Position numbers and translations under genes: made by a program. Below are positions 13,681 to 51,038 of a stretch of DNA of 64,000 nucleotides, piece by piece. The notes under the pieces were generated by a model. The model was not told where the DNA came from, ran no database searches, and was given only the letters and a program-made list of their open reading frames with translations. Source of the stretch: Thioclava sp. ES.031 (GTDB taxonomy: Bacteria > Pseudomonadota > Alphaproteobacteria > Rhodobacterales > Rhodobacteraceae); the NCBI RefSeq assembly GCF_002563775.1, contig NZ_PDJO01000001.1, forward strand, positions 1,250,001 through 1,314,000, given 5' to 3'. Numbering within the stretch: position 1 is the first letter of the stretch; each line of letters opens with the position of its first letter.

Positions 13681-13837
13681 CTGAGGGCGGCGCCCGACCT
13701 CGGGTGGGCGCTATGCGCGGATGGTGGGTTGGCGCTTTATCTTGCAAGCCCGCAAGTCGGTCGTACCCGCGATGACGTCGCCAGTGCGCCCTCCCGGGGG
13801 GAGGTCGGGCGCGGCCCGGGGCTGGTCGCCCCGCGCC
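13681..13837 (+). repeat. Dispersed convergent-junction repeat, copy A
   Basis: One of three copies of an element of about 157 bp (others at 49547-49704 and 50882-51038). Shared blocks include TCGGGTGGGCGC, GCAAGCCCGCAAG, TGCGCCCTCCCGGGGGGAGG and GGGCGCGGCCCGGGGCTGGT followed by CGCCCCG. Internal inverted segments (GCGCCC...GGGCGC and GGGGC...GCCCC) could fold into hairpins. This copy lies between the 3' ends of the aminotransferase gene and the VOC gene. I see no ORF of its own. Confidence 0.85.
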
Positions 13838-13864
13838 ATTCCAGCGTACGAGAAGGAGCCTCCC

Positions 13865-14446
13865 TCAATACGGGTTCTTCGCCCTGCGATCCTCGGACCG
13901 AGATTGCTGCGAGCGCTCCACGATCATCTCGATCGCATCGGCCAGATGTTCCTCACCGATCGCCTTGTCGCCGCTCGCCACCCGGATGCGATGCGCTTCG
14001 ATCATCACCTCGGCATGGGACGATCCGCGCGGCGGCTCGAACTTGTAGGTCGCCAGTTCGATCAGCAGCCCCAGCGGATCCTTGAAATAGATCGAATCCA
14101 TGAAGCCGCGATCCTTCACGCCGGAATGCGCGATCCCGCGCGCATCGAGCCGCGCCACGACCTGCCGATGCGTCGCCATCGAGACGTTGAAGGCGAGGTG
14201 ATGCACGCAGCCCGGATCGGTGGGGGTGCGGTCATGGACGGGCTTGCGGCTCTCGTTGGTGAAAACGGTAATCAGCCGCCCGTCGCCCGGGTCGAAATAG
14301 AGATGCCCCTCGTCGGCATTGTCCAGATTGGGTTGATCGAAGATGAACGGCATCCCGAGCAGCCCTTCCCAGAAATCGATCGAGCTCTGCCGGTCCGCTC
14401 CGGTCAGCGTGATGTGATGGACGCCCTGCACCTGCATCTTGCGCAT
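13865..14446 (-). CDS. VOC-family (glyoxalase/dioxygenase-like) protein
   Basis: A 193-residue metalloenzyme-fold protein. VQGVHHITLTG opens the first beta-alpha-beta-beta-beta module with a candidate metal-binding His; GCVHHLAFNVS opens the second with another; and PLGLLIELATYKF supplies the terminal Glu. This arrangement fits ring-cleaving dioxygenase-like VOC proteins. The C-terminal 40 residues are charged and unlike the core. The start follows AGGGAGAAAGAC. No substrate can be assigned; it breaks the run of pyrimidine genes, so a link with them is uncertain. Confidence 0.85.
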   Translation of the reverse strand: MRKMQVQGVHHITLTGADRQSSIDFWEGLLGMPFIFDQPNLDNADEGHLYFDPGDGRLITVFTNESRKPVHDRTPTDPGCVHHLAFNVSMATHRQVVARLDARGIAHSGVKDRGFMDSIYFKDPLGLLIELATYKFEPPRGSSHAEVMIEAHRIRVASGDKAIGEEHLADAIEMIVERSQQSRSEDRRAKNPY

Positions 14447-14619
14447 GTCTTTCTCCCTATCTCTCTTGCGACCAAGTTAACCCATGCTGGGCGCAGGTCT
14501 AGAAACAGGATCTGTGCGGTGCCGCGCGAAACCCCGCCGAGCGCTGCCGCGCCAAACTGCACGATCTTGTGGTGGCGGGGGCGGGGATTATGTTGCACGG
14601 CAATGTCCGGAGACTCGCG

Positions 14620-15438
14620 ATGCTGCGCCTAGCCTTTTTCCTCGCCCTGATCTGCCCGCTGCCCGCGATGGCCGAGCTGGTGCCCTGCGAGACCTCCATT
14701 CGCGGCAAGACCTATTCCTACGTCTATGACGCGGAGAACGCGGCGCTGAAGGAAAGCCGCTCGCTGCGCGAGAAGCTGTTTGGCGAGAAGGGGGAGGTGA
14801 CCTGCCCGGCGCTGGTCACCCTGCGCGCGCTGACGCCCGAGATGGACGACGAAAGCCGCGCCCCGTTCTGTCTGCAATGGTACAAGGAGGCCGAGACCTA
14901 TCTGGGCTACGACCGGGGCGAGCGCGACGCCTACGGGCTCTGCCGCAAACCGTCGAAAAGCATCTGCGAACGTATCAAGGGCACCGCGAAGGCCGCAGGC
15001 GATCTGCGCGACGAGGCCGAAAGCGCCGTGGGCGATGCGGCGAGCAAGGTTCTGGGCAAGAAGATCGGCGGCATGATCGTCTCGGATCAGGCCGACAGCC
15101 TGCAAAAGAAGCTGCGCGATGCGGGGCTTGGCGTGCTGGCTGGGGCCTCGGCGCCAGCCCTCGCGGCCACGGCGGTGGTCGTGGGTGGCGCGATTTACGT
15201 CTGTTCGGATATCGGCGCCGAGGCGGTGGGGCTGGAGGCCGATCCGGTCGAGCCGACCTCGGATGGGGCGGAGCTTCTGGGCGCGAAACTGCCCGAGACG
15301 CATCTGCCCGCGGGCGTGGCCGGGGCGCCAATGCGCCCGGTCGAGACCGAGACGCTGCCCGCCGCGCCCGAGGCATCGGAGGAGGCCTCGCAAGCCCCGG
15401 CGCCGGAGGCGTTTGAAGGCGTCGCGGTGCAGAAATGA
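14620..15438 (+). CDS. Secreted hypothetical protein
   Basis: A 272-residue protein with a clear signal peptide (MLRLAFFLALICPLPAMA). The mature part has several Cys residues (LVPCETS, VTCPAL, FCLQW, YGLCRK, SICERI) that may form disulfides. A hydrophobic Ala/Gly-rich segment follows at about residues 165-200, and the C-terminus is acidic and rich in Pro, Glu and Ala. I do not recognise a family. The ATG at 14620 is preceded by CCGGAGA; earlier in-frame starts lack the signal peptide. It is convergent with the outer-membrane barrel gene and shares its terminator. Confidence 0.75.
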   Translation: MLRLAFFLALICPLPAMAELVPCETSIRGKTYSYVYDAENAALKESRSLREKLFGEKGEVTCPALVTLRALTPEMDDESRAPFCLQWYKEAETYLGYDRGERDAYGLCRKPSKSICERIKGTAKAAGDLRDEAESAVGDAASKVLGKKIGGMIVSDQADSLQKKLRDAGLGVLAGASAPALAATAVVVGGAIYVCSDIGAEAVGLEADPVEPTSDGAELLGAKLPETHLPAGVAGAPMRPVETETLPAAPEASEEASQAPAPEAFEGVAVQK

Positions 15439-15439
15439 A

Positions 15440-15463
15440 AAGGGGCGCGAACCCGCGCCCCTT
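15440..15463. terminator. Bidirectional terminator
   Basis: AAGGGGCGCG and CGCGCCCCTT pair around AACC, between the convergent secreted-protein gene and the outer-membrane protein gene. A's precede the stem and T's close it. Confidence 0.8.
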
Positions 15464-15487
15464 CCGGATACCCAATACGTAATTGGC

Positions 15488-16114
15488 TCAGAAGTTGATC
15501 TTCATGCCAACACGAAACTGGGAGAAGGCAAAGCCGCCCGAAGTCACGCTCGGTGCGCTGAAGTCCGGGCTGTCCAGAACGATGTTCATCAGCTCTGCCC
15601 GGAGAGAAATGCGGTCGCTCAGGGCGTAATCGGTGCCGAGGCCAAGTGCGATGCCGGTCTGGGTGTCCGAATATCCGCAATCGGTGGACCCGCAAGCGCC
15701 AGCATCTGCGATCCCTTTGACATGGCCAGCAGCGATGCCTGCAGTGATATAGGGGGTCATCTTGCCCATCTGAGTGCGCGCGGTGACGCGCAGCGTGGCC
15801 AGCCAGTCGGCCTTCATCTCGCAGCCGCCTTCGCCGACAAGGCACGGGGTCGTGCCGCCTTCGATATGGTTGGATTTGTAGTCCCCGGCCGAGATGTCGC
15901 CTTCGATGGCGACATTTTGAGACAGGCTCTTACCGAAGCCCACCGTGACGCCGTTGCCATTGGCATCGAACGAAGTCGAATCGCCCGGAAGATAGTTGTA
16001 GGTCGGCTTGGCGAAAGTCCGGTTGGCGAGAACATAGCCATAGAGGCCTTCGGCCGCCGCGCTTTGCGCGAGCCCCATCAGTGCGATCGCCGCGATTGCG
16101 ATTATTTTTTTCAT
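15488..16114 (-). CDS. Outer-membrane beta-barrel protein (opacity/OmpA-like barrel)
   Basis: A 208-residue protein with signal peptide MKKIIAIAAIALMGLAQSAAA, alternating hydrophobic strands (NVAIEGDISAGDY, WLATLRVTARTQM, ISLRAELMNIVL, FSQFRVGMKINF) and a C-terminal Phe, the usual signal for the BAM complex. Four Cys fall in two pairs that could be disulfides in extracellular loops. It fits small eight-stranded porin-family barrels; the function is unknown. RBS and start are clear, and 144 bp separate its start from the next gene's stop. Confidence 0.85.
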   Translation of the reverse strand: MKKIIAIAAIALMGLAQSAAAEGLYGYVLANRTFAKPTYNYLPGDSTSFDANGNGVTVGFGKSLSQNVAIEGDISAGDYKSNHIEGGTTPCLVGEGGCEMKADWLATLRVTARTQMGKMTPYITAGIAAGHVKGIADAGACGSTDCGYSDTQTGIALGLGTDYALSDRISLRAELMNIVLDSPDFSAPSVTSGGFAFSQFRVGMKINF

Positions 16115-16258
16115 TGTCCCAAATCCCTACAGATTTCACTCGTTGCAGTGGGGAGTTGACACAATACTGTGAACATGGCTCGCATTATGGACGGGTGATG
16201 CAGCCTCAACATCGAGGCTGTTTCATCAATACAACAATAAGTTCAGCCATTTCACCTT

Positions 16259-16921
16259 TTAGGCGACTCCGATTCCTCGCAATACAACCCCTTTCACGCA
16301 GGTCTTCGCCTCTTCCCACTGAGCGTCACTCAGCGGTGCGCCGTCGTTCAACGTCTCGATCTGATGCGAGAAATCGGCGTAGTGCTGGGTGGTGGCCCAG
16401 AGCATGTAGAGCAGGTGATGCGGGTCGACCTCGGCCATTTTCCCCTCGGCGATCCAGCGCCGGATGATCACCGCGCGGCCCTCGGTCCAGTCGCGCAGCG
16501 TCGTCTCGAGGTAATCCTGAATCACCGGTGCGCCGTGCATCACCTCTGAGGCCCAGACCTTTGAGCCGTTCGGGTGATTGCGCGAAATCTCCATCTTGGC
16601 GTCGATATAGGCCCCGATCCCCTCGGCCGGTCCGCTGGCCTCATCGAACACATCCGCCGCTTCCAGCCAGATGTTGAAGATACGCTCCACGACCCGGCGA
16701 TAGAGCGACTCTTTCGTCTCGAAATAGTAATGCAGATTGGCTTTCGGCAGCCCGGCCACATCCGCGATCAATTGCATCGTGGCACCGCCGAATCCGGCTT
16801 CGGCGAAGACCGTTTCGGCGGCTTTCAGGATCGCCTCTTCGGTGGCGCGCCGCGCCTCGGCGCGGCTACCGCGGCTCGCTTGCCCATTTTTTGTGCGCTT
16901 GCCGCTCTCATCATCTTTCAT
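16259..16921 (-). CDS. TetR-family regulator, second RutR-type paralogue
   Basis: A 220-residue regulator resembling the RutR-like protein at 11436-12086: helix-turn-helix FGGATMQLIADVAGLPKANL then HYYFETKESL, and C-terminal GKMAEVDPHHLLYMLWATTQ then HYADF. The N-terminus is basic (KRTKNGQASRGSRAEARR). It is divergent from the carbamoylase gene, with two TGACC-N4-GGTCA operators between them. The likely role is control of the carbamoylase-dihydropyrimidinase-transporter operon and of itself. The effector is unknown: uracil, a dihydropyrimidine or a hydantoin are candidates. Confidence 0.88.
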   Translation of the reverse strand: MKDDESGKRTKNGQASRGSRAEARRATEEAILKAAETVFAEAGFGGATMQLIADVAGLPKANLHYYFETKESLYRRVVERIFNIWLEAADVFDEASGPAEGIGAYIDAKMEISRNHPNGSKVWASEVMHGAPVIQDYLETTLRDWTEGRAVIIRRWIAEGKMAEVDPHHLLYMLWATTQHYADFSHQIETLNDGAPLSDAQWEEAKTCVKGVVLRGIGVA

Positions 16922-16943
16922 TCAAAATACGTCCTGATTTTTG

Positions 16944-16959
16944 TTGACCGAATGGTCAG
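16944..16959. promoter_or_regulatory. RutR-like operator 2
   Basis: TTGACCGAATGGTCAG contains the inverted repeat TGACC-N4-GGTCA. It sits 23 bp from the TetR start codon and is centred 33 bp (about three helical turns) from operator 3, so two repressor dimers could bind on the same DNA face. Confidence 0.78.
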
Positions 16960-16976
16960 ACCGTGGCCCACTCAAC

Positions 16977-16992
16977 CTGACCATACGGTCAG
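16977..16992. promoter_or_regulatory. RutR-like operator 3
   Basis: CTGACCATACGGTCAG, again TGACC-N4-GGTCA, 56 nt before the carbamoylase start. It pairs with operator 2 in the same divergent promoter region. Confidence 0.78.
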
Positions 16993-17048
16993 AAAAAGAT
17001 TCGTCGCAAGAGGGGATAACCCCCACGCAGCCGACAGGGAGTTATGAA

Positions 17049-18299
17049 ATGTCAGCACCCGGAGAAAACCTCCGCATCAATCCCGATCGCCTTTGGGACA
17101 GTCTCATGGAGATGGCCAAGATCGGTCCCGGCGTCGCCGGGGGCAATAATCGCCAGACCCTCACCGATGCGGATGCCGAAGGCCGCGCGCTGTTCCAGAA
17201 ATGGTGCGAAGACGCCGGCATGACGATGGGCGTCGACACGATGGGCAACATGTTCGCGACCCGCGCGGGCGAAGACCCCGATGCGCTGCCGGTCTATATG
17301 GGCAGCCACCTCGACACGCAGCCCACGGGCGGCAAATACGACGGTGTCCTCGGTGTGCTCGGCGCGCTGGAGGCGGTGCGCTCGATGAACGATCTCGGGA
17401 TCAAGACCAAGCACCCGATCGTCGTGACCAACTGGACCAACGAAGAGGGCACGCGCTTCGCTCCGGCGATGCTCGCCTCGGGTGTCTTCGCGGGCATCCA
17501 CACGCAGGACTGGGCCTACGATCGCGAAGACGCAGAAGGCAAGAAGTTCGGCGACGAGCTGAAGCGTGTCGGCTGGGTCGGCGACGAAGAGGTCGGTGCG
17601 CGCAAGATGCATGCGATGTTCGAACTGCATATCGAGCAGGGCCCGATCCTCGAAGCCGAAGGCAAGGATATCGGCGTCGTCACGCATGGGCAGGGCCTCA
17701 GCTGGACGCAGGTGACGATCACCGGCAAGGACGCGCATACCGGCTCCACCCCGATGCCGATGCGCAAGAATGCGGGCCTCGGCATGGCGCGCGTGCTGGA
17801 ACTGGTCGACGAGATCGCCTGGTCGCACAAGCCCCATGCGGTGGGCGCCGCGGGCCATATCGACATCTACCCGAATTCGCGTAACGTGATCCCCGGCAAA
17901 GCCGTGTTCACCGTCGATTTCCGCTCGCCCGATCTGAGCGTGATCGAGGATATGGAAAAACGGCTGCGCGAGGGGGCGAAGAAAATCTGCGACGAGATGG
18001 GCCTTGAGGTGGAATTCGAGAAGACCGGCGGCTTCGACCCCGTCACCTTCGATCCGGCCTGCGTGAGCGCCGTGCGCAGCGCCGCCGAGCGTCTGGGCTA
18101 TTCGCATCGCGACATCATCTCGGGCGCGGGCCACGATGCCTGCTGGATCAACGCGGTCGCGCCGACGGCGATGGTGATGTGCCCCTGCGTCGACGGGCTG
18201 AGCCATAACGAGGCCGAGGATATTTCCAAGGACTGGGCAGGCGCGGGTGCCGATGTGCTGTTCCACGCCGTGCTGGAAACCGCGGAAATCGTAAGCTGA
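17049..18299 (+). CDS. Zn-dependent N-carbamoyl-amino acid hydrolase / beta-ureidopropionase
   Basis: Hydantoinase/carbamoylase-family amidase of the M20 fold. Metal ligands appear in MGSHLDTQPTGGKYDG, TNEEGTRF, ELHIEQGPILE and, near the end, DGLSHNEAED. The likely reaction is N-carbamoyl-beta-alanine to beta-alanine, CO2 and ammonia, the third step of reductive pyrimidine breakdown; an N-carbamoyl-L-amino acid hydrolase role cannot be excluded. I chose the ATG at 17049 (416 residues) because GGGAG lies just upstream. The frame stays open upstream to 16941 but that part covers the operators. First gene of an operon running to the ABC transporter. Confidence 0.93.
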   Translation: MSAPGENLRINPDRLWDSLMEMAKIGPGVAGGNNRQTLTDADAEGRALFQKWCEDAGMTMGVDTMGNMFATRAGEDPDALPVYMGSHLDTQPTGGKYDGVLGVLGALEAVRSMNDLGIKTKHPIVVTNWTNEEGTRFAPAMLASGVFAGIHTQDWAYDREDAEGKKFGDELKRVGWVGDEEVGARKMHAMFELHIEQGPILEAEGKDIGVVTHGQGLSWTQVTITGKDAHTGSTPMPMRKNAGLGMARVLELVDEIAWSHKPHAVGAAGHIDIYPNSRNVIPGKAVFTVDFRSPDLSVIEDMEKRLREGAKKICDEMGLEVEFEKTGGFDPVTFDPACVSAVRSAAERLGYSHRDIISGAGHDACWINAVAPTAMVMCPCVDGLSHNEAEDISKDWAGAGADVLFHAVLETAEIVS

Positions 18300-18310
18300 T
18301 ACGGGCGGAA

Positions 18311-18342
18311 GAGGGGGCGCTGCCCCCTCGGCGCTATGCGCC
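18311..18342 (+). promoter_or_regulatory. Double hairpin between carbamoylase and dihydropyrimidinase genes
   Basis: GAGGGGGC/GCCCCCTC (loop GCT, 18311-18329) is followed directly by GGCGC/GCGCC (loop TAT, 18330-18342), then CACCCCCGGGATATTTG. There is no T run. Sequences of this shape recur in intergenic regions of Rhodobacteraceae; here it may adjust the relative expression of two genes of the same operon by attenuation or RNA processing. Confidence 0.55.
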
Positions 18343-18400
18343 TCACCCCCGGGATATTTGAACCAAATCGAAGGCGGAAGACCTTCGTGGGAGGTAAGCA

Positions 18401-19852
18401 ATGACCAAAGTCATCAAGAACGGAACCATCGTCACCGCCGATCTGACCTACAAGGCGGATGTGCTGATCGACAGCGGCAAGATCATCGAGATCGGCCCGA
18501 ACCTGAAAGGCGACGAAGAGATCGACGCGACCGGCTGCTACGTGATGCCGGGCGGGATCGATCCGCATACCCATCTCGAGATGCCCTTCATGGGCACCTA
18601 TTCGAGCGACGATTTCGAATCCGGCACCCGCGCGGCGCTGGCCGGCGGCACCACGATGGTCGTCGACTTCGCGCTGCCCGCGCCGGGCGAGGGCCTGCTG
18701 GAGGCGCTCAAGCGCTGGGACAACAAATCGACCCGCGCGCATTGCGACTACTCTTTCCACATGGCGATCACCTGGTGGAGCGAGCAGGTCTTCAACGAGA
18801 TGAAGCAAGTTACCGAGCGCGGCATCAACACCTTCAAGCACTTCATGGCCTATAAGGGCGCGCTGATGGTGAACGATGACGAGCTCTATTCGAGCTTCAA
18901 GCGCTGCGCCGAGCTGGGCGCGATCCCGCTGGTCCATGCCGAGAATGGCGATGTCGTGGCAGAGCTGTCCGCGAAGCTGCTGGCCGATGGCAATAACGGC
19001 CCCGAAGGTCACGCCTATTCGCGCCCGCCGCAGGTCGAGGGCGAGGCCACCAACCGCGCGATCATGATCGCCGATATGGCGGGCGTGCCGCTTTATGTCG
19101 TGCACACCTCCTGCGAGGAAAGCCACGAGGCGATCCGCCGCGCCAAGATGCAGGGCAAGCGCGTCTGGGGCGAGCCGCTGATCCAGCACCTCACGCTCGA
19201 TGAGAGCGAGTATTTCGACAAGGATTGGGACCACGCCGCGCGCCGCGTGATGTCGCCGCCCTTCCGCAACAAGCAGCATCAGGACAGCCTCTGGGCTGGT
19301 CTCGCCTCGGGCTCGCTCTCGGTGGTCGCGACCGATCACTGCGCCTTCTCGACCGAGCAGAAGCGCTATGGCGTGGGCGATTTCACCAAGATCCCGAACG
19401 GCACCGGCGGCTTGGAAGACCGGATGCCGATGCTCTGGACCTATGGGGTCGAGACCGGCCGGATCACGATGAACGAATTCGTGGCCGTGACCTCGACCAA
19501 CATCGCGAAGATTCTCAACGTCTATCCGAAGAAGGGCGCGGTTCTGGTTGGTGCGGATGCCGATCTCGTGGTCTGGGATCCGGAGGCGACCAAGACGATC
19601 TCGGCCAAGACCCAGCAATCTGCCATCGATTACAACGTGTTCGAGGGCAAAGAGGTCAAGGGTCTGCCGCGCTACACGCTCAGCCGCGGTGTCGTCGCCT
19701 GGGCCGATGGCAAGATCCAGACGCCCGAGGGCCACGGTGAATTCGTCGCGCGCGATCCAGGCATGCCGGTGACCAAGGCTCTGTCCACCTGGAAAGAGCT
19801 CACCGCGCCGCGTCCGGTCGAACGCAGCGGTATCCCGGCGACCGGGGTATAA
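18401..19852 (+). CDS. hydA: Dihydropyrimidinase (D-hydantoinase)
   Basis: Cyclic amidohydrolase of 483 residues that opens dihydrouracil/dihydrothymine to the N-carbamoyl-beta-amino acid. The metal site is complete: GGIDPHTHLEMPFMGT (HxH), the carbamylated Lys in HFMAYKGALMV, His in LVHAENGD and VVHTSCEES, and Asp in VATDHCAFS. The start follows GGGAGGTAAGCA. It sits between the carbamoylase and the importer genes, the second catabolic step. A hydantoin-specific role is possible, but the neighbouring PreTA favours pyrimidines. Confidence 0.96.
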   Translation: MTKVIKNGTIVTADLTYKADVLIDSGKIIEIGPNLKGDEEIDATGCYVMPGGIDPHTHLEMPFMGTYSSDDFESGTRAALAGGTTMVVDFALPAPGEGLLEALKRWDNKSTRAHCDYSFHMAITWWSEQVFNEMKQVTERGINTFKHFMAYKGALMVNDDELYSSFKRCAELGAIPLVHAENGDVVAELSAKLLADGNNGPEGHAYSRPPQVEGEATNRAIMIADMAGVPLYVVHTSCEESHEAIRRAKMQGKRVWGEPLIQHLTLDESEYFDKDWDHAARRVMSPPFRNKQHQDSLWAGLASGSLSVVATDHCAFSTEQKRYGVGDFTKIPNGTGGLEDRMPMLWTYGVETGRITMNEFVAVTSTNIAKILNVYPKKGAVLVGADADLVVWDPEATKTISAKTQQSAIDYNVFEGKEVKGLPRYTLSRGVVAWADGKIQTPEGHGEFVARDPGMPVTKALSTWKELTAPRPVERSGIPATGV

Positions 19853-19858
19853 GGCTTC

Positions 19859-20281
19859 ATGGCGGCCCCGGTCAGTTCCGGCGTTTTGGAGGCTGCGGTC
19901 TATGTCGAGGATCTCGACGCGACCGAAGCCTTCTACGGCGGGCTGCTGGGGCTCGAGCGGCTAACCCGTCGCGACGGGCGGCATGTCTTTTTCCGCTGTG
20001 GCGACAGCGTGATCCTGACCTTCATCGCTCAGGCCACGCGGGAGCCACCCGACCCGGAGGCGGCGCTGCCCGTTCCACCGCATGGCGCGGTCGGACCGGG
20101 GCATGTATGTCTCGCGGCGGAGGCGGAACAACTGAACGAATGGGAACGACATTTGAGGGACAATAACGTGGAGATTGAGGCCGACTTCTATTGGCCGAAC
20201 GGAGCGCGGTCGATCTACCTGCGCGACCCGGCGGGCAACAGCGTCGAGATTGCGGATAAAACCCTGTGGAGGCGCGGATGA
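19859..20281 (+). CDS. VOC-family protein
   Basis: A small, single-chain glyoxalase-fold protein of 140 residues (VLEAAVYVEDLDATEAFYGG at the start; RSIYLRDPAGNSVEIADK at the end, with the terminal Glu). It lies 6 bp after the dihydropyrimidinase stop, and its stop overlaps the ABC ATPase start (ATGA, 20278-20281), so it is built into the pyrimidine operon. No known step of the pathway needs such a protein; it could act on a toxic aldehyde or on a side product, but this is a guess. Confidence 0.88.
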   Translation: MAAPVSSGVLEAAVYVEDLDATEAFYGGLLGLERLTRRDGRHVFFRCGDSVILTFIAQATREPPDPEAALPVPPHGAVGPGHVCLAAEAEQLNEWERHLRDNNVEIEADFYWPNGARSIYLRDPAGNSVEIADKTLWRRG

Positions 20282-21066
20282 CGGCAGCACCGGTAATTCA
20301 GGCCCGCGGGCTCAATCTGACTTTCCAGACGGGGGACGGTTCGGTTCACGCGCTGAAAGATATCGATCTCGATATCGAGAAGGGCGAATTCGTGAGCTTC
20401 ATCGGCCCTTCGGGCTGCGGCAAGACGACCTTCCTGCGGTGCATCGCGGCACTGGAGACGCCCACGGGCGGCTCGCTCACCGTGAACGGCATCTCGCCGG
20501 AGGAAGCCCGCAAGGCGCGCAGCTACGGCTACGTGTTCCAGGCGGCGGGTCTTTATCCTTGGCGTACGATCGCGGGGAATGTGAAGCTTCCGCTGGAAAT
20601 CATGGGCTATTCCAAGGCGCAGCAGGAAGAGCGTGTTGAAAAAGTGCTCTCGCTCGTCGACCTCGAAGGTTTCGGCAAAAAGTTCCCCTGGCAGCTCTCG
20701 GGCGGCATGCAACAACGCGCCTCGATCGCGCGGGCGCTGGCCTTCGACGCCGAGATCCTGCTGATGGACGAGCCCTTCGGCGCGCTCGACGAGATCGTGC
20801 GCGACAAGCTCAACGAAGAGCTTCTCAAGCTCTGGTCGGCCACCAACAAGACGATCGGCTTCGTGACCCACTCGATCCCGGAAGCGGTCTATCTGTCGAC
20901 CAAGATCGTCGTGATGTCGCCCCGTCCGGGCCGCATCCACGAGGTGATCGAGAGTACGTTGCCGAAAGGGCCGCGTCCGCTCGACATCCGCGACAGCGAG
21001 GAATTCCTGCAGATCGCGCACCGGGTGCGCGAGGGGCTTCGGGCGGGGCATGCCTATGATGAATGA
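20278..21066 (+). CDS. ABC transporter ATP-binding protein (nitrate/taurine/pyrimidine type)
   Basis: A 262-residue ATPase with Walker A GPSGCGKTT, Q-loop region FQAAGLYPWRT, signature LSGGMQQR, Walker B ILLMDEPFGALDE and switch FVTHS. It belongs to the SsuB/TauB/ThiZ-like group. The start ATG is coupled to the preceding gene by ATGA. Together with two permeases and a binding protein downstream it forms an importer, which from position most likely takes up a pyrimidine or pyrimidine derivative. The substrate is inferred from context. Confidence 0.93.
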   Translation: MTAAPVIQARGLNLTFQTGDGSVHALKDIDLDIEKGEFVSFIGPSGCGKTTFLRCIAALETPTGGSLTVNGISPEEARKARSYGYVFQAAGLYPWRTIAGNVKLPLEIMGYSKAQQEERVEKVLSLVDLEGFGKKFPWQLSGGMQQRASIARALAFDAEILLMDEPFGALDEIVRDKLNEELLKLWSATNKTIGFVTHSIPEAVYLSTKIVVMSPRPGRIHEVIESTLPKGPRPLDIRDSEEFLQIAHRVREGLRAGHAYDE

Positions 21067-21160
21067 CCGCATGACCGACACCCGGACCGGGCGGGACTGC
21101 GCGCCGCTCTGGGCCTCGCCAAAGGCGCGTTCGGCCAAGCCGACGTGGAGGGCGGTCTGA
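21056..21160 (+). CDS. Possible 34-residue small ORF coupled to both ABC genes
   Basis: An ORF begins ATGATG inside the last codons of the ATPase gene and ends with TGA at 21158-21160, whose A is the first base of the first permease ATG. It would encode 34 residues (MMNDRMTDTRTGRDCAPLWA and 14 more), hydrophilic and without membrane segment. Double overlap suggests that ribosomes traverse it to reach the permease start. It could be a coupling leader without a functional product. I do not recognise the peptide. Confidence 0.35.
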   Translation: MMNDRMTDTRTGRDCAPLWASPKARSAKPTWRAV

Positions 21161-43157: not shown

Positions 43158-43160
43158 GCC

Positions 43161-43568
43161 TCAGCGCATGACCATGACCGCGCATTTCGCATGGCGCACG
43201 ACGCGCGAGGCGGTCGAGCCGATCAGGTAATCGCCAAAGCCCGGACGGTGCGACGCGATCACGATGCAATCGGCCCCGATATTTTCAGCGTAGTCGAGGA
43301 TTTCATGGCCGGGCTGACCTTCGACGATTGCCCAGGCGCCCGCGTCGAACTCTGCCGCGCGCGTGGCGAGGTCTTGCTCCAGCGTCTTGCGCAATTCCTC
43401 CGCATAGCCCTCGGGCATGTAGTTGATCGCATAGGCGGGGACGTCTTCCATCACATGCAGCAAGGTGATGCGCGCTCCGTCGCCTGCCAGCGCCCGCGCG
43501 ACATTGAGCGCGGCATCGGGGTTGTGATCTTCGTCGAAGGCGACGGGCACGAGAATGTTGGAATACAT
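43161..43568 (-). CDS. Universal stress protein (UspA family)
   Basis: A 135-residue single-domain USP. NILVPVAFDEDHNPDAALNV opens the fold and the C-terminal ASHRPGFGDYLIGSTASRVV is an ATP-binding-type loop, ending in HAKCAVMVMR. RBS GGAG precedes the start. An FNR-like box (43623-43636) lies 54 nt upstream, consistent with the anaerobic control known for USPs in other bacteria. Confidence 0.93.
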   Translation of the reverse strand: MYSNILVPVAFDEDHNPDAALNVARALAGDGARITLLHVMEDVPAYAINYMPEGYAEELRKTLEQDLATRAAEFDAGAWAIVEGQPGHEILDYAENIGADCIVIASHRPGFGDYLIGSTASRVVRHAKCAVMVMR

Positions 43569-43622
43569 TGGTTTGGCTCCCTTTCTTTGTCGGGAGCCTG
43601 CCAGACGGTCTGGCCCTGCGCA

Positions 43623-43636
43623 TTGATTTGAGTCAC
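43623..43636 (-). promoter_or_regulatory. FNR-like box upstream of the usp gene
   Basis: On the minus strand GTGACTCAAATCAA matches TTGAT-N4-ATCAA at 8 of 10 positions, with a perfect distal half. It ends 54 nt before the usp start codon. Confidence 0.4.
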
Positions 43637-44088
43637 CCCGGACGGCGGCAAAGACGCCAGATGACGCAAAGGAAGGCGAGAACCGCTCCGCCCCAGAGCG
43701 CGGGCGTCAGACCGGGGCGATAGATCAGGGAAGCGAAGGCCTCGCCGGGCAGCCACCCGCCGCCCGTGGCGGAGGCGAAGCCGCTCGCGACACGCTCGGC
43801 CACCCAATACCAGCCAAGGGCGAACAGCGCCGCGAGAAGGGCCCGCAGCGGCCACGGCCCGGAAATCGCGGCGAGAAGCGCAAGCGGCAGGATCAGGATG
43901 GCGCTGGCCTTTGCGACATCGAATGCGAGGCTCAGCCCCGTGACCGCTCGCGCACGCTCGGCATAGCCCAGCCCTGCGAGCGTGTCGAAATTGCCGAGCA
44001 TCAGATGCGCCCAGAGCGTAAGCGCCACGAGCGCTGCGCCGATCAGACCCGCGCCGAGCGCGCGCGACGCACGCTCGGCAGGTCTCAT
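43633..44088 (-). CDS. Hypothetical four-helix membrane protein
   Basis: A 151-residue protein with about four helices ([68 protein letters not shown]). I do not recognise a family. It is coupled to moaA by ATGA overlap at 44085-44088, so it is downstream in the same transcript. Confidence 0.75.
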
Positions 44089-45092
44089 CCGCCGGTATGG
44101 CTCATGTGGCGCGACATCTGGCCCGAGACCTTCTGGCGCGAATAGTCGAAATCATGGCCTTTGGGCTTGCGCGAGATCGCCTCGCGGATCGCGGCTTCCA
44201 GCGCGGCATCGTCCTCGTTGGCCCGCAGGGGCGCGCGCAGATCGGCGTTGTCTTCCTGGCCGAGGCACATGAACAACTCGCCCGTGCAGGTCACCCGCAC
44301 GCGGTTGCAGTTCTCGCAGAAATTATGCGTGAGCGGCGTGATGAAACCGATCTTCTGACCGCTTTCCTCAAGCCGGACGTAGCGCGCCGGGCCCCCGGTC
44401 GATTCCGCCAGATCGGTCAGGGTAAAGCGTTCGGCCATCGCCTTGCGCACATCCGAGAGCGGCCAGTATTGATCGAGCCGCAGATCGTCGCCCATCTCGC
44501 CCATCGGCATCACTTCGATAAAGGTCAGATCGAAGCCTTCCGCCGCGCACCAGTCGATCAGGGTGAACAGCTCGTCCTCGTTGAAGCCCTTCAGCGCGAC
44601 GGTGTTGATCTTGACCTTGAGGCCCGCGCGTTTCGCCGCCTCCAGGCCTTTGAGCACCTGTTCGAGCCGCCCCCAGCGCGTGATCTTCGCGAATTTGTCG
44701 GCATCGAGCGTGTCGAGCGAGACGTTGATCCGCTTCATGCCCAGTGCCGCGAGATCATCGGCGAATTTCGCAAGCTGCGAGCCATTGGTGGTCAGCGTCA
44801 GCTCGCGCAGATCGCCGGTCTCCAGATGCCGCGAGATCGAGCGGAAGAAGGTCATGATGTCACGCCGCACCAGCGGCTCGCCCCCGGTGATGCGCAGCTT
44901 CTTCACGCCGAGGCGGATGAAGGTCGAGCAGAGCCGGTCCAGTTCTTCGAGCGTCAGCAGTTCCTTTTTCGGCAGGAACTGCATGTGTTCGGCCATGCAA
45001 TAGGTGCAGCGAAAGTCGCAGCGGTCGGTGACCGAGACCCGCAAATAGTCGATCGGGCGGGCGAAGGGGTCGATGAGGGGCGTGTTATCCAT
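44085..45092 (-). CDS. moaA: GTP 3',8-cyclase MoaA
   Basis: Radical-SAM enzyme of the first step in molybdenum cofactor synthesis. The N-terminal cluster motif is CDFRCTYC (CxxxCxxC); the C-terminal cluster is carried by [20 protein letters not shown], and the chain ends in the conserved Gly-Gly (SHTGG) that inserts into the active site. The start [10 protein letters not shown] (335 residues) was chosen over an upstream in-frame start because the upstream segment has no similarity. No other moa genes are nearby. Confidence 0.97.
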
Positions 45093-45224
45093 GTGCGGAA
45101 AGTAAGGTGCGGGGGGCGGGGCGGCAAGGGTGGTCGCGCGGATCGCAGCTGATCGGGGGCCGCGCGGGGGTGACACTGGCTGCGGACTGGGCATAGGCTC
45201 GGCTGAGATTCAAGGAGACTTCGA

Positions 45225-45710
45225 ATGCGCAAAACCCTCGCTCGTCCGATCCTCGCGCTCGTTTTGACGATGCCGATTGCGGGCTGCGCCACGCTCGGGC
45301 TGAACGGCCCGAACGCCGCGGGCTCGGGCTCTGCAGCGGCGCCCGGCGCGGCGGCGACTGCGACCCCGGTTCCGAAACCCAGCGCGAAAACCGCCGATTC
45401 CTTCGATACCACCACGGCAGAACAGCGCGCCGAGGCGGCGAAGAAACCCGTGGGCGGCGAGACCAAGCTTGGCACCACCATCGCGAGCCTTGGCGATCCG
45501 GCCGATCCGGGCTTCTGGGTGAAGACCGGGCTTGTCAAAAGCGAGACCCCCGGCCGGATCGAAGACCCGAAGACCGGCAAATCCGCGAAGGTCACGCTGA
45601 TCCCGTCGGGCAAGGCGGCTGGCTCGGGCTCGGAAGTGTCGCTGCCGGCGCTGCGCCTGCTCGAGGTGCCGCTGACCGATCTGCCCGAACTCACCGTCTA
45701 CAAGCTTTGA
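45225..45710 (+). CDS. Hypothetical lipoprotein
   Basis: A 161-residue protein with a lipoprotein signal peptide (MRKTLARPILALVLTMPIAG then Cys), an Ala/Gly/Pro-rich linker and a small folded C-terminal part (KSAKVTLIPSGKAAGSGSEV then SLPALRLLEVPLTDLPELTV) with Rhodobacterales-like composition. RBS AAGGAG precedes the ATG. The function is unknown; such proteins in this order are often called D-galactarate dehydratase-like or uncharacterised, and I would not go beyond that. Confidence 0.8.
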   Translation: MRKTLARPILALVLTMPIAGCATLGLNGPNAAGSGSAAAPGAAATATPVPKPSAKTADSFDTTTAEQRAEAAKKPVGGETKLGTTIASLGDPADPGFWVKTGLVKSETPGRIEDPKTGKSAKVTLIPSGKAAGSGSEVSLPALRLLEVPLTDLPELTVYKL

Positions 45711-45720
45711 GCGGTTCGCG

Positions 45721-46167
45721 ATGAACCCTCTGCGCGAGATCGACATTCCGCCGCTCTGGCTGGTGCTGTTCGCGGCGCTGGTCTGGGCGCTGGGGCAGGT
45801 CGTGCCGATGGCGTTTCGCTATGATCGCGCGCTCGGGATGATCGCGATCGCGCTTGGGCTCGCACTCATGCTGGCCGCGGTGGGGCAGATGCTGCTTCAC
45901 CGCACCACCTTCATCCCGCGCCGTGATCCGTCCGACCTCGTGACCTCCGGGGTCTTCGCGCTGTCGCGCAACCCGATCTATCTCGGCGACGCGCTGGTGC
46001 TCGCGGGGCTGGCGCTGATCTGGCACGCGCCTTTGGGGCTTCTGCTGGTGCCGGTCTTCATGTGGTTCATCACGCAGCGCTACATTCTCGGCGAGGAAGC
46101 CCGGATCGCCGCGCATTTCGGCGAAGCTTACACCGCCTACCGCGCCCGGACCCGCCGCTGGCTCTGA
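45721..46167 (+). CDS. Isoprenylcysteine carboxyl methyltransferase-like (PEMT family) protein
   Basis: A 148-residue membrane protein with three to four helices. TSGVFALSRNPIYLGDALVL and the final EEARIAAHFGEAYTAYRART are the SAM-binding motifs of the ICMT/PEMT-like family found in many bacteria without known substrates. It follows the lipoprotein gene by 10 bp and may be co-transcribed. Confidence 0.9.
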   Translation: MNPLREIDIPPLWLVLFAALVWALGQVVPMAFRYDRALGMIAIALGLALMLAAVGQMLLHRTTFIPRRDPSDLVTSGVFALSRNPIYLGDALVLAGLALIWHAPLGLLLVPVFMWFITQRYILGEEARIAAHFGEAYTAYRARTRRWL

Positions 46168-46454
46168 TCGAGCCGCGGCATAATGCTGCGCCCGCAAAAA
46201 AAGCTGAAGCCGGTGCAATCGGGTCGCAGCGCGAAATAAACGATCTAACACTCTGATATGAAGTCATAAATCACCCCGATGTTCGGTATTCAATGGTATA
46301 CACGAACCGGTGAGCTGCGCCGTGAACGATTAACAAGGTTTTACGGCCCATCGGTGCTTGTGAAACATTATTGCGCGATGCTAAGGAGTACGACGCAAGA
46401 TTCCGGGTGCGCAGGCCATCGGCTAAACGCACCGCTATCCAAGGGGGAGTTAGA
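46168..46454 (+). promoter_or_regulatory. Leader/promoter region of pntAB
   Basis: A 287-bp AT-richer stretch with no convincing ORF of its own; the pntA frame stays open upstream to 46371 but lacks family similarity there. It should hold the pntAB promoter. I cannot point to a confident -35/-10 pair. Confidence 0.5.
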
Positions 46455-48029
46455 GTGAAAATCGGAGCTCCAAAGGAGATTTTCGAGGGCGAGGCGCGGG
46501 TCGCCATGACGCCCGACTCGGCTTTGCAGCTGCAAAAGCTGGGTCATGAGTGCTTCATCGAGACCGGAGCAGGCGTCCGTGCCGGCTTCACAGACGAGGC
46601 CTACGAGGCCGCGAATGTGACCGTCATCAAGACCGCCGCCGCGCTGTTCAAAGAGGTGGATTTCGTCATCAAGGTTCGCCCGCCGAGCGATACCGAGGTC
46701 AAGCGCCTCAAGCCCGGCCAGACCCTGATCTCGTTCTTCTACCCGGCCCAGAACGAAGAGCTTCTGAAAGCCGCCGAGAAGACCGGTGCGAACGTGATCG
46801 CGATGGACATGGTCCCGCGGATCTCGCGCGCGCAGAAAATGGATGCGCTGTCCTCCATGGCCAATATCGCGGGCTACCGTGCGGTGCTCGAGGCAGGCAA
46901 CAACTTCGGCCGCTTCTTCACCGGTCAGGTGACGGCGGCAGGTAAGGTTCCGCCGGCGAAAGTGCTCGTGGTGGGCGCAGGCGTCGCGGGTCTCGCCGCG
47001 ATCGGCGCTTCGACCTCGCTGGGTGCGATCACCTACGCGTTCGACGTGCGTCCCGAAGTGGCCGAGCAGATCGAGTCGATGGGCGCCGAGTTCGTCTATC
47101 TCGACTTCGAGGAGGCCGCGAAAGACGGCGCCGAGACGGGTGGCTATGCTGCGCCGTCCTCGCCGGAATTCCGTGAAGCCCAGCTTGCGAAATTCCGCGA
47201 ACTGGCCCCCGATATCGACATCGTCATCACCACCGCGCTGATCCCGGGCCGCGACGCCCCGGTGCTGTGGACCAAGGACATGGTCGAGGCGATGAAGCCG
47301 GGCTCGGTGATCGTGGACCTCGCCGCCGAGCGCGGCGGCAACTGCGAACTGACGGTGCCGGACGAGAAGATCGTGAGCGACAATGGCGTGACCATCGTCG
47401 GCTACACGGATTTCCCGAGCCGCATGGCGACGCAGAGCTCCGCGCTCTACTCGACCAACATCCGTCACATGATGACGGACCTGACGCCCGAGAAGGACGG
47501 TGTCGTCGTCCATGACATGGAAGACGACGTGATCCGTGGCGCGACCGTGGCCTATCAGGGCGAGATCACCTTCCCGCCGCCGAAACCCAAGGTAGCCGCG
47601 ATCGCGGCGCAAAAGCCGAAGGAAAAGGCCAAGGAACTGACGCCGGAAGAGAAGCGCGCCGCCGAGGTGGCCGAGTTCAAGAAGCAGACCCGCAATCAGG
47701 TGACGCTGCTCGCCGTGGGCGCGATCGTGCTTCTGGGCGTGGGCCTCGTGGCGCCGGCCAGCTTCATGCAGCACTTCATCGTCTTCGTGCTCAGCTGTTT
47801 CGTGGGCTTCCAGGTGATCTGGAACGTCTCGCACTCGCTGCACACGCCGCTGATGGCTGTGACCAACGCGATCTCGTCGATCATCATCCTCGGCGCGCTG
47901 TTGCAGATCGGATCGGGCTCGTGGCTCGTGATCGTGCTGGCCGCGCTGTCGGTGTTCATGGCCGGGATCAACATCTTCGGTGGCTTCATGGTCACCCGGC
48001 GCATGCTCGCCATGTTCCAGAAGTCGTAA
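46455..48029 (+). CDS. pntA: NAD(P) transhydrogenase subunit alpha
   Basis: Proton-translocating transhydrogenase subunit (524 residues). The N-terminus [19 protein letters not shown] and the NAD-binding [16 protein letters not shown] are alanine-dehydrogenase-like (domain I); RGGNCELT and [14 protein letters not shown] follow. The C-terminus holds four membrane helices ([17 protein letters not shown] and others), so the chain is full-length PntA. The start is GTG, with GGGGGAG upstream. pntB follows after 15 bp. The enzyme makes NADPH from NADH at the expense of the proton gradient. Confidence 0.96.
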
Positions 48030-48044
48030 GAGGGGGAGAGCGTA

Positions 48045-49478
48045 ATGGAAAACGGATTCTCGACCGCCGCCTATGTTGTCGCGGCAGTTCTCTTCATCCT
48101 CTCGCTGGGCGGCCTTTCGGGGCAGGAAAGCGCGAAACGGGCCGTGTGGTATGGCATCTTCGGCATGGGCCTCGCGGTTCTGGCGACGCTGATCGGCCCC
48201 GGTTCGGGTCTTTGGCTTCTCTCGGTCATCCTGATCGCGGGCGGTGGCATCATCGGCTGGTTCGTCGCGAACCGGGTGCAGATGACGGAAATGCCGCAGC
48301 TTGTGGCCGCGATGCACTCGCTGGTCGGTCTGGCCGCCGTCTTCGTGGGCTACAACGCCTATATCGAGATGGCGCGCGTCGGCGCGATGGGCGCGGAAGA
48401 GCAGCACGCGCTGAAGGGCTTTGCCGCTCTGATCGCGCATAAGACGCCGGTCGAACTGTCGATCCTGCGCGTCGAGCTGTTCCTCGGCGTGTTCATCGGG
48501 GCGGTGACCTTCACCGGGTCGGTCGTGGCCTTCGGCAAGCTCGCGGGCAAGGTGACCTCGAAGGCCACCAAGCTGCCGGGCGGGCATATCCTCAATGCGA
48601 CGGCTGCGATCCTCTCGGTGATCCTGCTGATCGCCTTCCTGAACGGGGCAGGGGCCTGGGCGCTGATCGTGATGACGCTTCTGGCCTTCTTCATCGGCTA
48701 TCACCTGATCATGGGTATCGGCGGGGCCGATATGCCGGTCGTGGTGTCGATGCTGAACTCCTATTCGGGCTGGGCCGCGGCGGCGATCGGCTTCTCGCTG
48801 GGCAACGATCTTCTGATCGTGGTCGGCGCGCTGGTCGGCTCCTCGGGTGCGATCCTGTCCTACATCATGTGTAAGGCGATGAACCGCTCGTTCATCAGCG
48901 TTATCCTCGGCGGCTTCGGCGGCGCCTCCGGTCCCGCGATGGAAGTCGAGGGCGAGCAGATCGCGATCGACGCCGACGGCGTGGCCTCCGCGCTGCGCGA
49001 CGCCGATAGCGTGATCATCGTGCCGGGCTACGGCATGGCGGTGGCGCAGGCTCAGCAGGCGGTGTCGGAACTGACCCGCAAACTGCGCAGCCAAGGCAAG
49101 GAAGTGCGCTTCGCGATCCACCCGGTCGCGGGCCGTCTGCCGGGCCACATGAACGTGCTCTTGGCCGAGGCGAAGGTGCCCTACGATATCGTTCTGGAAA
49201 TGGACGAGATCAACGAGGACTTCCCCGACACTGACGTGGTGATCGTCATCGGCTCGAATGACATCGTGAACCCCGCCGCACAGGAAGACCCGAACTCGCC
49301 GATCGCCGGCATGCCGGTTCTGGAAGTGTGGAAGGCCAAGCAGGTGTTCGTCTCGAAGCGCGGCCAGGGCACCGGCTATTCGGGCATCGAGAACCCGCTG
49401 TTCTACAAAGAGAACACCCGGATGTTCTATGGCGACGCCAAGGACTCGGTGAACGCGCTGCTGCCGCTGATCGACTGA
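48045..49478 (+). CDS. pntB: NAD(P) transhydrogenase subunit beta
   Basis: A 477-residue subunit with about nine membrane helices followed by the soluble NADP-binding domain III, including [39 protein letters not shown] and [20 protein letters not shown]. Length and motifs are complete. Ends the operon at a strong terminator. Confidence 0.97.
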
Positions 49479-49500
49479 TCGGCAGGGCAGGGAAATTGGA

Positions 49501-49531
49501 AACGGCCGGTCGAGGGACCGGCCGTTTTCGT
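49501..49531 (+). terminator. Terminator after pntB
   Basis: AACGGCCGGTC and GACCGGCCGTT form a stem around GAGG, followed by TTCGTTT. Repeat copy B starts about 16 bases downstream, in the same relation as copy A to its terminator. Confidence 0.88.
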
Positions 49532-49546
49532 TTGGGGTGATGGGCG

Positions 49547-49704
49547 CTGAGGGACGCGCCCGAGCCTCGGGTGGGCGCTGTGCTTCGCATGTGGCTGGGC
49601 AGTTTATCTCGCAAGCACGGACGACGGCGACACTCGCGATGACATCGCCAATGCGCCCTCCCGGGGGGAGGGTCGGGCGCGGCCCGGGGCTGGTCGCCCC
49701 GTGC
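49547..49704 (+). repeat. Dispersed convergent-junction repeat, copy B
   Basis: Same element as 13681-13837 in the same orientation, between the 3' ends of pntB and the SufE gene. It keeps the blocks CTGAGGGACGCGCCCGAGCC, GTTTATCTCGCAAGC, TCGCGATGACATCGCCAATG, TGCGCCCTCCCGGGGGGAGG and CCCGGGGCTGGTCGCCCCG. Confidence 0.85.
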
Positions 49705-49731
49705 ATCGTCAAAGTTGGAAAACCTAGGGCC

Positions 49732-50160
49732 TTACGCCCCCACGGCCTCACCCGCCAGCTTGCGAATCCGCTCCACCATCGCGCGCAGCCCGTTCGAGCG
49801 CTGCGCCGAGAGGTGGTCGTTCAGGCCCAGACGGCCCAGCTCGGCGGGCGCGTCCACCTTCAGCACGTCCTCGACCGTCAGGCCGGAATAAAGCGCATGC
49901 AGGATCGCGATCAGGCCCTGCACGATCATCGCATCGCTCTCGCCCTGAAAATCGAATCTCGCCTGCGGGCCCTCGCCTTCGATCCGGGGCAGCAGCCAGA
50001 CCTGGCTCGCACAGCCCTCCACCTTGGTCGCAGGCACCTTCACCGCATCGTCCAGCGGCGGCAATTCGCGGCCCAGCTCGATCACGTGACGGTAGCGGTC
50101 CTCCCAATCGTCGAGAAATTCGAAGGTCTCGGCAATCTCTTCAAAGGCTTCGCGCGCCAT
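49732..50160 (-). CDS. sufE: SufE-family Fe-S cluster assembly protein
   Basis: A 142-residue sulfur-acceptor protein that takes persulfide sulfur from SufS. The active-site Cys50 lies in KVEGCASQVWLLP, the family signature, and SNGLRAMVERIRKLAGEAV is the conserved C-terminal helix. I chose ATG 50160, with AGGAG at a good distance; a GTG at 50166 is too close to it. It is away from a suf operon. Confidence 0.94.
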   Translation of the reverse strand: MAREAFEEIAETFEFLDDWEDRYRHVIELGRELPPLDDAVKVPATKVEGCASQVWLLPRIEGEGPQARFDFQGESDAMIVQGLIAILHALYSGLTVEDVLKVDAPAELGRLGLNDHLSAQRSNGLRAMVERIRKLAGEAVGA

Positions 50161-50298
50161 GGTCACTCGCTCCTGGGGATAGGGAATTGCCTATTGGGTA
50201 ACGGGTTCGCGCCCGAGGGTCCAGACGCGGCTTTTCAAAAGCGCCGCAATGGGCTACCACAAATCCGGGTCCAGACCCGGGACAGTATCGGAGCCATC

Positions 50299-50796
50299 AT
50301 GAACAAAGCCCTGATCGCGGCACTTGCCCTGACGCTCACCACCGCAGGCTGCGGCACCATCCGTGACAGCAAGCTCAACCCGTTCAACTGGTTCGGGCGC
50401 GACACGGCCGCACCCGTGCAGACGCTTGCCCCGCGCGGCGGCTACCCCGTGAAGGTCGGCAAGCCGAACCAGCAGCAGGTGTCGCAGGTGTCCTCGCTTT
50501 CGGTCGAGAAGATCCCCTCGGGCGCGATCATCACCGCGATGGGCCTGCCGCCGACGCAAGGCTATTGGGACACCGATCTGGTTCCGCTCAACGACGGCGC
50601 ACCGGATGAGAAGGGCACCGTGACCTATGTCTTCATGGTCTCGCCGCCGCCCGCCGACAGCCCCGATGCGCGCCGGGTGATGAACGCGACGTCGCGCGAG
50701 GTCTCGGCAGCTGCGTTCCTGAGCAATTACAAGCTACAGGGCGTGCGTAGGATCGTGGTGCAGGGCGTGTCGAATGCGCGGTCCGTCGCGCGCTGA
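50299..50796 (+). CDS. Conserved hypothetical lipoprotein
   Basis: A 165-residue protein with lipobox LTTAGC after a short hydrophobic signal, then RDSKLNPFNWFGRD, a motif seen in several Rhodobacterales lipoproteins. The mature domain ends in SNYKLQGVRRIVVQGVSNAR, suggesting an alpha/beta fold. The ATG at 50299 gives the signal peptide; the longer frame upstream does not. The function is unknown. Confidence 0.85.
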   Translation: MNKALIAALALTLTTAGCGTIRDSKLNPFNWFGRDTAAPVQTLAPRGGYPVKVGKPNQQQVSQVSSLSVEKIPSGAIITAMGLPPTQGYWDTDLVPLNDGAPDEKGTVTYVFMVSPPPADSPDARRVMNATSREVSAAAFLSNYKLQGVRRIVVQGVSNARSVAR

Positions 50797-50821
50797 GCTT
50801 GGTTTGATCTGAATAGGTATG

Positions 50822-50848
50822 AGGCTCGGGAGAACCCGAGCCTTTTTC
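50822..50848 (+). terminator. Terminator after the lipoprotein gene
   Basis: GGCTCGGG and CCCGAGCC pair around AGAA and are followed by TTTTTCTT. Confidence 0.9.
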
Positions 50849-50881
50849 TTGTCGAGGCTGCGCGCTTTGTATCTGGGACCT

Positions 50882-51038
50882 GGCGCGGGGCGACCAGCCC
50901 CGGGCCGCGCCCGACCCTCCCCATGGGAGGGCGCATTGGCGATGCTATCGCGCGAATAAACGCCTTGCGGGCTTGCGAGATAAAGTGCCGACCTCAAAGC
51001 GCGGCGACGCGCCCACCCAAGGATCGGGCGCGTCCCTC
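50882..51038 (-). repeat. Dispersed convergent-junction repeat, copy C (inverted)
   Basis: The reverse complement aligns with copies A and B over the full length: GAGGGACGCGCCCGATCC, TTGGGTGGGCGC, TTTATCTCGCAAGCCCGCAA, ATCGCCAATGCGCCCTCCC and GGTCGGGCGCGGCCCGGGGC then TGGTCGCCCCGCGCC. It again lies between convergent gene ends (lipoprotein gene and rnd). Confidence 0.85.

Follow-up and report, generated by a model that had tools for sequence, protein, structure and literature searches.

A stem-forming intergenic repeat of Thioclava and related genera as a candidate REP-like gene-end element

Introduction

An old question about repeats of the repetitive extragenic palindromic (REP) kind is whether they are carried along as selfish DNA or serve a function at gene ends. 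It can be tested with the repeat family described here, because its occupied sites are shared between genomes with interchangeable orientations and the difference between its conserved and variable columns can be measured. Three copies of this repeat, each of about 157 bp and numbered 1 to 3 by position, lie in a 64,000-nucleotide stretch of Thioclava DNA (positions 1,250,001–1,314,000 of a genome of 4,019,144 bases; hereafter the window and the source genome).

REP elements and bacterial interspersed mosaic elements (BIMEs) are palindromic, dispersed and extragenic and lie between convergent and unidirectional genes; they have been proposed to act in supercoiling, in termination and in the stabilisation of mRNA (PMC3733652, PMC1525189, PMC2817692). 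One subgroup, the CGTC-tagged REPs, is mostly alphaproteobacterial, often has a CCA tail and has no known dedicated transposase (PMC3733652). Larger repeats are described in a further source (PMC2229807): (i) YPAL or RU-2 of Yersinia, an intergenic element of about 168 bp that is not A+T-rich, has internal inverted repeats and termini without TA, and may affect upstream transcripts; (ii) the CIRs of Caulobacter and Brucella, alphaproteobacterial intergenic repeats of about 110 bp with conserved folds; and (iii) enterobacterial repetitive intergenic consensus (ERIC) sequences, intergenic repeats tied to mRNA stability in an orientation-dependent manner.

Results

The repeat belongs to a family of noncoding intergenic elements of approximately 150–160 nt, found in the Rhodobacterales family that includes Thioclava and made up of a GC-rich long stem, a variable loop and a small 3' hairpin. 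Its 5' side reads AGGG-NN-GCGCCCGA-CCT-CGGGTGGGCGC, its variable middle contains TTTATCTCGCAAGCCCG, and its 3' side reads GCGCCCTCCC-GGG-GGGAGGGTCGGGCGC-GG-CCC, followed by the hairpin GGGGC-TGGTC-GCCCC and often by a GCCA tail. The small hairpin occurs also on its own or as a leftover, and the TTTATC of the conserved loop stretch is present in 130 of 158 Thioclava elements. In copy 2 the parts are as follows, all on the plus strand:

49540–49549: 5' extension, about 10 bases before AGGG, weakly conserved (from upstream sequences)
49551–49578: 5' arm of the long stem (covariation and covariance model)
49603–49616: conserved stretch in the variable loop, TTTATCTCGCAAGC (from sequence)
49653–49685: 3' arm of the long stem, covarying with the 5' arm across genera (covariation and covariance model)
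49686–49700: small 3' hairpin GGGGC-TGGTC-GCCCC, followed in many copies by a CCA-like tail (sequence and covariance model)

Thirty elements, three of them from Thioclava and 27 from other genera, served to evaluate the long stem, which joins the two ends of the element. We determined that 96.5% of the cells are paired, that 12 of the 26 pairs show two-sided changes, and that none of 500 shuffles reaches the observed value on any of five measures; sliding by 1–3 columns lowers pairing to 41–57%. Of these 26 pairs, 25 were also predicted by RNAalifold. A local hairpin was rejected as the main fold, one of its seven pairs covarying, compared with 12 of 26 in the long stem. Columns 6 and 139 were checked separately because the search model lacks that pair: in the source genome, A is accompanied by T in four of seven copies and C by T in one of 20 (Fisher P = 0.009), and the same association (A against C on the 5' side) is found among 105 distinct alleles (P = 4e-6). 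Furthermore, mispairs on the AGGG-to-CCA strand are more often G.U than A.C in Thioclava (outer stem 28:11, inner stem 12:4), at the two pairs outside the model (12:2) and in the 30-element set (16:4); this one-stranded excess suggests that the folded form is single-stranded, either RNA or DNA. A sequence-only reading of the window had noted internal hairpin-forming segments. The palindromes in them do exist, although copy 2 folds with an energy that is ordinary for its composition (z = -0.65); the support for the structure comes from covariation.

The element seems to be constrained where it sits, its stems apparently being preserved by selection. In 35 independent same-site, same-orientation pairs with an identity of at least 0.92, substitutions were found in 52 of 2205 cells of conserved columns (2.4%) and 146 of 1506 cells of variable columns (9.7%; chi-square P = 3e-22, with cells taken as independent). 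Change in the conserved columns is about four times below that in variable columns or flanking spacers, and about as low as at first and second codon positions: in the flanks of 36 same-allele pairs, codon positions 1, 2 and 3 differ by 2.2, 1.4 and 12.4%, respectively, and intergenic sequence by 9.2%. The pattern is the same at thresholds of 0.90 and 0.94, and it persists when the source genome is left out (22 pairs, P = 6e-13) and when only G/C columns are counted. Variable columns might also gain differences through gene conversion between copies, but they differ about as often as the flanks do, which makes selection the simpler explanation.

To compare sites across ten Thioclava genomes, we used 162 elements: 37 from the source genome, 29 of the 34 matches in the genome labelled G014, 24 of 35 in G006, 20 of 34 in G012, 19 of 32 in G009, 13 of 22 in G003, three of five in G015, one of three in G008, the only one in G002 (1 of 1) and, in G001, 12 listed model matches of 28 together with three shorter BLAST places. 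Left out from the source genome were a short match (1004426), an overlapping reverse match (1600617), one of two copies in the same spacer (2221494) and two hairpin-only places; also dropped were two loci at contig ends, one each from G008 and G012, and two of 29 loci of other genera. The element-rich Thioclava have their sites in common: altogether 149 of the 162 elements lie at 38 shared sites, and 17 of these 38 sites are occupied in mixed orientation. All 29 retrieved G014 copies could be placed at source-genome sites, with both flanks agreeing for 28 of them and a single flank for the other. Twelve of the 29 are inverted relative to the source genome, and one counted as non-inverted is ambiguous, the source spacer having both orientations.

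While same-site pairs in the same orientation (n = 176) have a median identity of 0.885, with 36% at 0.92 or above, inverted same-site pairs (n = 78) have a median of 0.828, with a single pair at 0.92 or above. Copies within one genome (1895 pairs) have a median of 0.821 and a maximum of 0.935, and in 148 directed comparisons the inverted same-site copy came out as the best match in only 9.5%, somewhat above chance. Since inverted pairs are no more alike than unrelated copies, the inverted occupant is as a rule another, older copy. Simple in-place inversion was rejected for most sites on the same ground, with a true inversion perhaps at site 3695595 (0.92); recent transposition was rejected as well, there being no near-identical copies within a genome. 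Allele sharing among species varies from site to site, as is expected from recombination between species. At site 3310886, for example, the source genome and G014 have one orientation and G006 and G009 the opposite one, while G012 has an internal deletion and G015 a few bases only. Leftover ends stand beside inverted neighbours, as an AGGGGC-type remnant at 3310886 and 3695595 and as a hairpin remnant at 1600650 and 2865525, from which we infer that a new copy landed beside an old one that then decayed.

A covariance model (R1), for which 23 copies were used, gave 40 places in the source genome at E <= 0.01 and 38 at E <= 0.001; BLAST gave 39. Genes were called with a codon-usage script trained on the source genome, which was also applied to the other genera. 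All 41 source-genome places, including two that are hairpin-only, fall in spacers (22 convergent, 17 tandem, 2 divergent) and none lies inside a called gene, a few edges overlapping a gene end by at most 21 bases. Spacers bearing a copy of more than 100 bases number 37 (21 convergent, 14 tandem, 2 divergent). As background we took the 409 junctions of a 464-kb sample (59 convergent, 285 tandem, 65 divergent), which included five element-bearing convergent junctions; three of these were subtracted before the Fisher tests. The odds ratio for convergent spacers against the rest is 8.2 (P = 1e-8); convergent against divergent gives P = 5e-5, and tandem against divergent P = 0.75. The suspicion that this is a dispersed repeat family enriched in convergent spacers is thus upheld (21 of 37 against 59 of 409 junctions), as is its noncoding nature: divergent (2 of 37) and coding positions do not equal convergent ones, though tandem spacers account for 14 of 37. 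Among 106 distinct, non-independent alleles of the ten Thioclava genomes, 57 are convergent, 43 tandem and 6 divergent; 27 usable loci of the 29 from other genera comprise 14 tandem, 9 convergent, no divergent and 4 unclear cases. Two annotated plasmid copies lie between convergent genes (Paroceanicella) and tandem genes (Leisingera).

The copies of the source genome leave free an arc of 1.10 Mb, from 3.738 Mb through 0 to 0.820 Mb, around the likely origin (P = 0.00025 against uniform placement). Across 20 sampled stretches the GC skew reverses near 0 and near 2.0 Mb, and lower-GC stretches within the arc may account for part of the gap.

In the window, the three copies were located with the covariance model 1–3 bases away from where they had first been noted, and gene calls together with Pfam names confirmed that the neighbours of all three converge:

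13684–13838, plus strand: copy 1, 155 bp, between a class-III aminotransferase gene (end 13614) and a glyoxalase-family gene (minus strand, end 13865)
49550–49706, plus strand: copy 2, 157 bp, between pntB (end 49478) and sufE (minus strand, end 49732)
50881–51037, minus strand: copy 3, 157 bp, between an open reading frame (ORF) without a Pfam match (end 50796) and a ribonuclease D-like gene (minus strand, end 51055)

The last of these genes has Pfam 3'-5' exonuclease and HRDC domains. The copies are 79–84% alike in pairs, with E-values of 4e-22 to 4e-24; the model otherwise matches, in the window, the reverse strand of the same three copies, the next match elsewhere having an E-value of 0.24. 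Intrinsic terminators, found by reading and by script, are:

13640–13669, plus strand: terminator of the aminotransferase gene, just ahead of copy 1
49503–49529, plus strand: terminator of pntB, just ahead of copy 2
50823–50848, plus strand: terminator of the upstream ORF, at the 3' side of copy 3

The first two stand about 15 and 21 bases ahead of their copies, with the shared sequence GTTTGGGGTG. Because G is common at positions -6 and -4 before AGGG (85 and 81 of 114 non-redundant upstream sequences), the bases shared near the terminators are partly the repeat's own, and the true 5' edge of the element is probably about 10 bases farther out.

In 19 of the 22 convergent cases, the stretch from the stop codon to the element lacks an intrinsic terminator for at least one neighbour, and in seven for both; the element would therefore be transcribed as a 3' end. 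In several cases the element end itself completes the neighbour's stop codon. The element is not itself an intrinsic terminator, as no conserved T run follows the small hairpin (91 sequences) or the long stem.

Two further features of the window lie within genes. A series of 27-base repeats at 55955–56623, in the reading frame 55289–57448, resembles glycine-aspartate calcium-binding (RTX-type) repeats; and 96-base stretches at 11535–11630 and 16370–16465, 78% alike, lie within two minus-strand genes that are possibly paralogs.

Matches at E <= 0.001 occur in 10 of 16 Thioclava genomes (38, 35, 34, 34, 32, 28, 22, 5, 3 and 1). BLAST against the source genome and 60 relatives gave matches in 22 of 61 genomes, none outside the family, and a class-wide draw gave two of 144, the source genome and one other of the same family. 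Within the family, however, the covariance model finds a match in 82 of 150 genomes, each from a different genus and the source genome among them (at most 20 candidates scored per genome, with rough E-values and the search tool's own family grouping), so that the suggestion of a repeat specific to the Thioclava lineage is not supported. One genome of another genus (G174) has head-to-tail arrays with a period of about 182 bases, of four elements (locus L374, 1281–1980) and five elements (locus L375, 1166–2040). Thirteen plasmid records match (11 from Leisingera, two from Paroceanicella) and no phage does.

Discussion

We tentatively regard the repeat as a REP-like, orientation-tolerant folded gene-end element, a reading to which we give slightly less than an even chance. 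Such an element would be transcribed as part of the 3' untranslated region of one or both neighbours, and its stem, folding from either strand, might block 3' exonucleases and help to keep two converging transcription units apart; either orientation would suffice because the stem folds from both strands. In favour of this reading are the enrichment between convergent genes, the missing terminators ahead of many copies, the covarying stem, the constraint on retained alleles, the sharing of sites with free orientation and the excess of G.U mispairs. The family would have spread by some process that is now old or rare, in which a site already occupied, or its immediate surroundings, received a new copy while the earlier one decayed. 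That, family-wide, the place is selected and the occupant interchangeable in either orientation, with old alleles shuffled between species and the stem kept by selection, is possible but rather doubtful.

Several observations weigh against a gene-end role or the evidence for it. Six of the 16 Thioclava genomes have no match and three have only one to five, so that gene ends can manage without the element. Four of the 13 retrieved G003 copies match no source-genome site, and five of the 37 source-genome copies are off the shared sites. Copies in tandem spacers are more often antisense than sense (12:3 in the source genome, counted by eye; 30:13 among the non-independent Thioclava alleles; and 9:5 in other genera, again by eye), a tendency that a plain sense role in the 3' untranslated region does not predict and that fits poorly with a folded plus strand. 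At least one terminator is missing in 24 of 33 element-free convergent spacers as against 12 of 22 element spacers (a whole-spacer count); replacement of terminators by the element is accordingly unsupported. As to the fold, most of the tested pairs are part of the covariance model with which the elements of other genera were found, and it therefore favours paired sequences; columns 6 and 139 are G.G or T.T in 13 of 105 alleles, the pair 5/140, which is outside the search model, is mispaired in 16 of 35 source-genome copies, and the small hairpin has no wobble bias (5:7). The ordinary folding energy of copy 2 belongs here as well.

A selfish, non-autonomous element resembling a miniature inverted-repeat transposable element (MITE), surviving in convergent spacers as the least harmful places and keeping its ends for recognition by an enzyme, would account for the many dispersed copies with long inverted arms, the absence from six Thioclava genomes, the different, inverted occupants and remnant ends at shared sites, the arrays in G174 and the spread over many genera. 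However, standing copies change about as little in their conserved columns as first and second codon positions do, the closest same-genome pair (0.935) gives no sign of recent copying, and target duplication is not above that of shuffled pairs. In addition, the Y1 transposases inspected are of the IS200/IS605 type and none occurs in four element-rich genomes, in a search that covered Y1 and no other transposase family. We consider this explanation unlikely, though not very much so.

The convergent enrichment, the freedom of orientation and the long palindromic arms would also suit a site acting as DNA, be it for gyrase, topoisomerase, a nucleoid protein or a supercoil-driven cruciform, that eases positive supercoiling between converging genes, a role that has been suggested for some REP/BIME elements. 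Against this stand the bias of G.U over A.C, which indicates a folded single strand, the 14 of 37 spacers that are tandem, and the exact IHF consensus, present in none of the 106 distinct alleles; the probability of such a site appears low. Lower still is that of a multicopy family of small RNA genes that would be read from the AGGG-to-CCA strand and, since their products act in trans, would depend little on position and orientation. The covarying stem, the strand-specific wobble bias, the conserved TTTATC in an otherwise variable loop and the antisense tendency in tandem spacers are all compatible with it, but the element has no T-run terminator of its own and, for the copies tested, no Rfam match, and the stability of sites and the preference for gene ends would be left unexplained.

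Comparison with described repeat families

No description of the family was found in the titles and abstracts of the open literature searched, subscription papers not being covered. Rfam 15 finds only two tRNAs in the window, and at E <= 10 copies 2 and 3 give weak matches far under the gathering scores; the family, which spans many genera, has no Rfam 15 match as far as these copies go.

The element shares with REP/BIME sequences its palindromic, dispersed and extragenic character and its place at gene ends. REP/BIME units are GTAG-tagged and 20–40 nt long, whereas the Thioclava element is about 155 nt, has one long stem and occurs in about 38 copies. GTAG is present in only 12 of 158 elements, and no GTAG-type foot of a 20–40-nt hairpin was found. 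Nor did we find a REP-associated tyrosine transposase (RAYT) flanked by the repeats. The source genome has two Y1_Tnp genes, both adjoining OrfB_IS605 genes, in loci (L031 and L032) whose ends are unlike the element by eye and contain no match to it; each locus (1486–3173 in both) is an IS200/IS605 unit with tnpA and tnpB facing apart and CCCCTTCCAACCTACGGGATTGGTGGGG-like ends. Y1 genes occur in three of 16 Thioclava genomes and in none of G006, G012, G001 and G003, which have 35, 34, 28 and 22 element matches; the loci read exclude those of G009 and G014 (L368 and L369). The resemblance to REP/BIME that had been proposed from sequence thus extends to the extragenic gene-end location, but not to membership, since no RAYT was found, the tag is lacking and the unit size differs.

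With the CGTC REPs the element has in common an alphaproteobacterial host, the lack of a known dedicated transposase and a CCA-type tail. It lacks both the CGTC tag and the stem of 8–9 bp opening with AT pairs: CGTC occurs anywhere in 55 of 158 elements, but not before the hairpin, and the stem does not start with AT pairs. YPAL/RU-2 is similar in size, intergenic place, composition, inverted repeats and termini without TA, but has target duplications and recent filled and empty sites, neither of which was found for the Thioclava element. Direct repeats of at least 5 bases near the ends are present in 25.5% of 106 alleles as compared with 22.5% (up to 34%) of shuffled pairs, the edges being uncertain. 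Membership of the CIRs, which according to the same source carry GANTC, was rejected, as only seven of 158 elements contain that sequence. As for the terminal inverted repeats of MITEs, long inverted arms exist, but they would not be terminal, because the right arm is followed by a hairpin and tail of about 22 bases.

ERIC sequences are about 127 bp long. Their effect, in the account used here, depends on orientation, whereas the orientation of the Thioclava element is exchanged at shared sites. The family is thus real and widespread and seems to be under constraint; it does not fit the REP/RAYT systems, the CGTC REPs, the CIRs or, as far as can be tested, MITEs, yet on this evidence it would resemble REP elements in its working.

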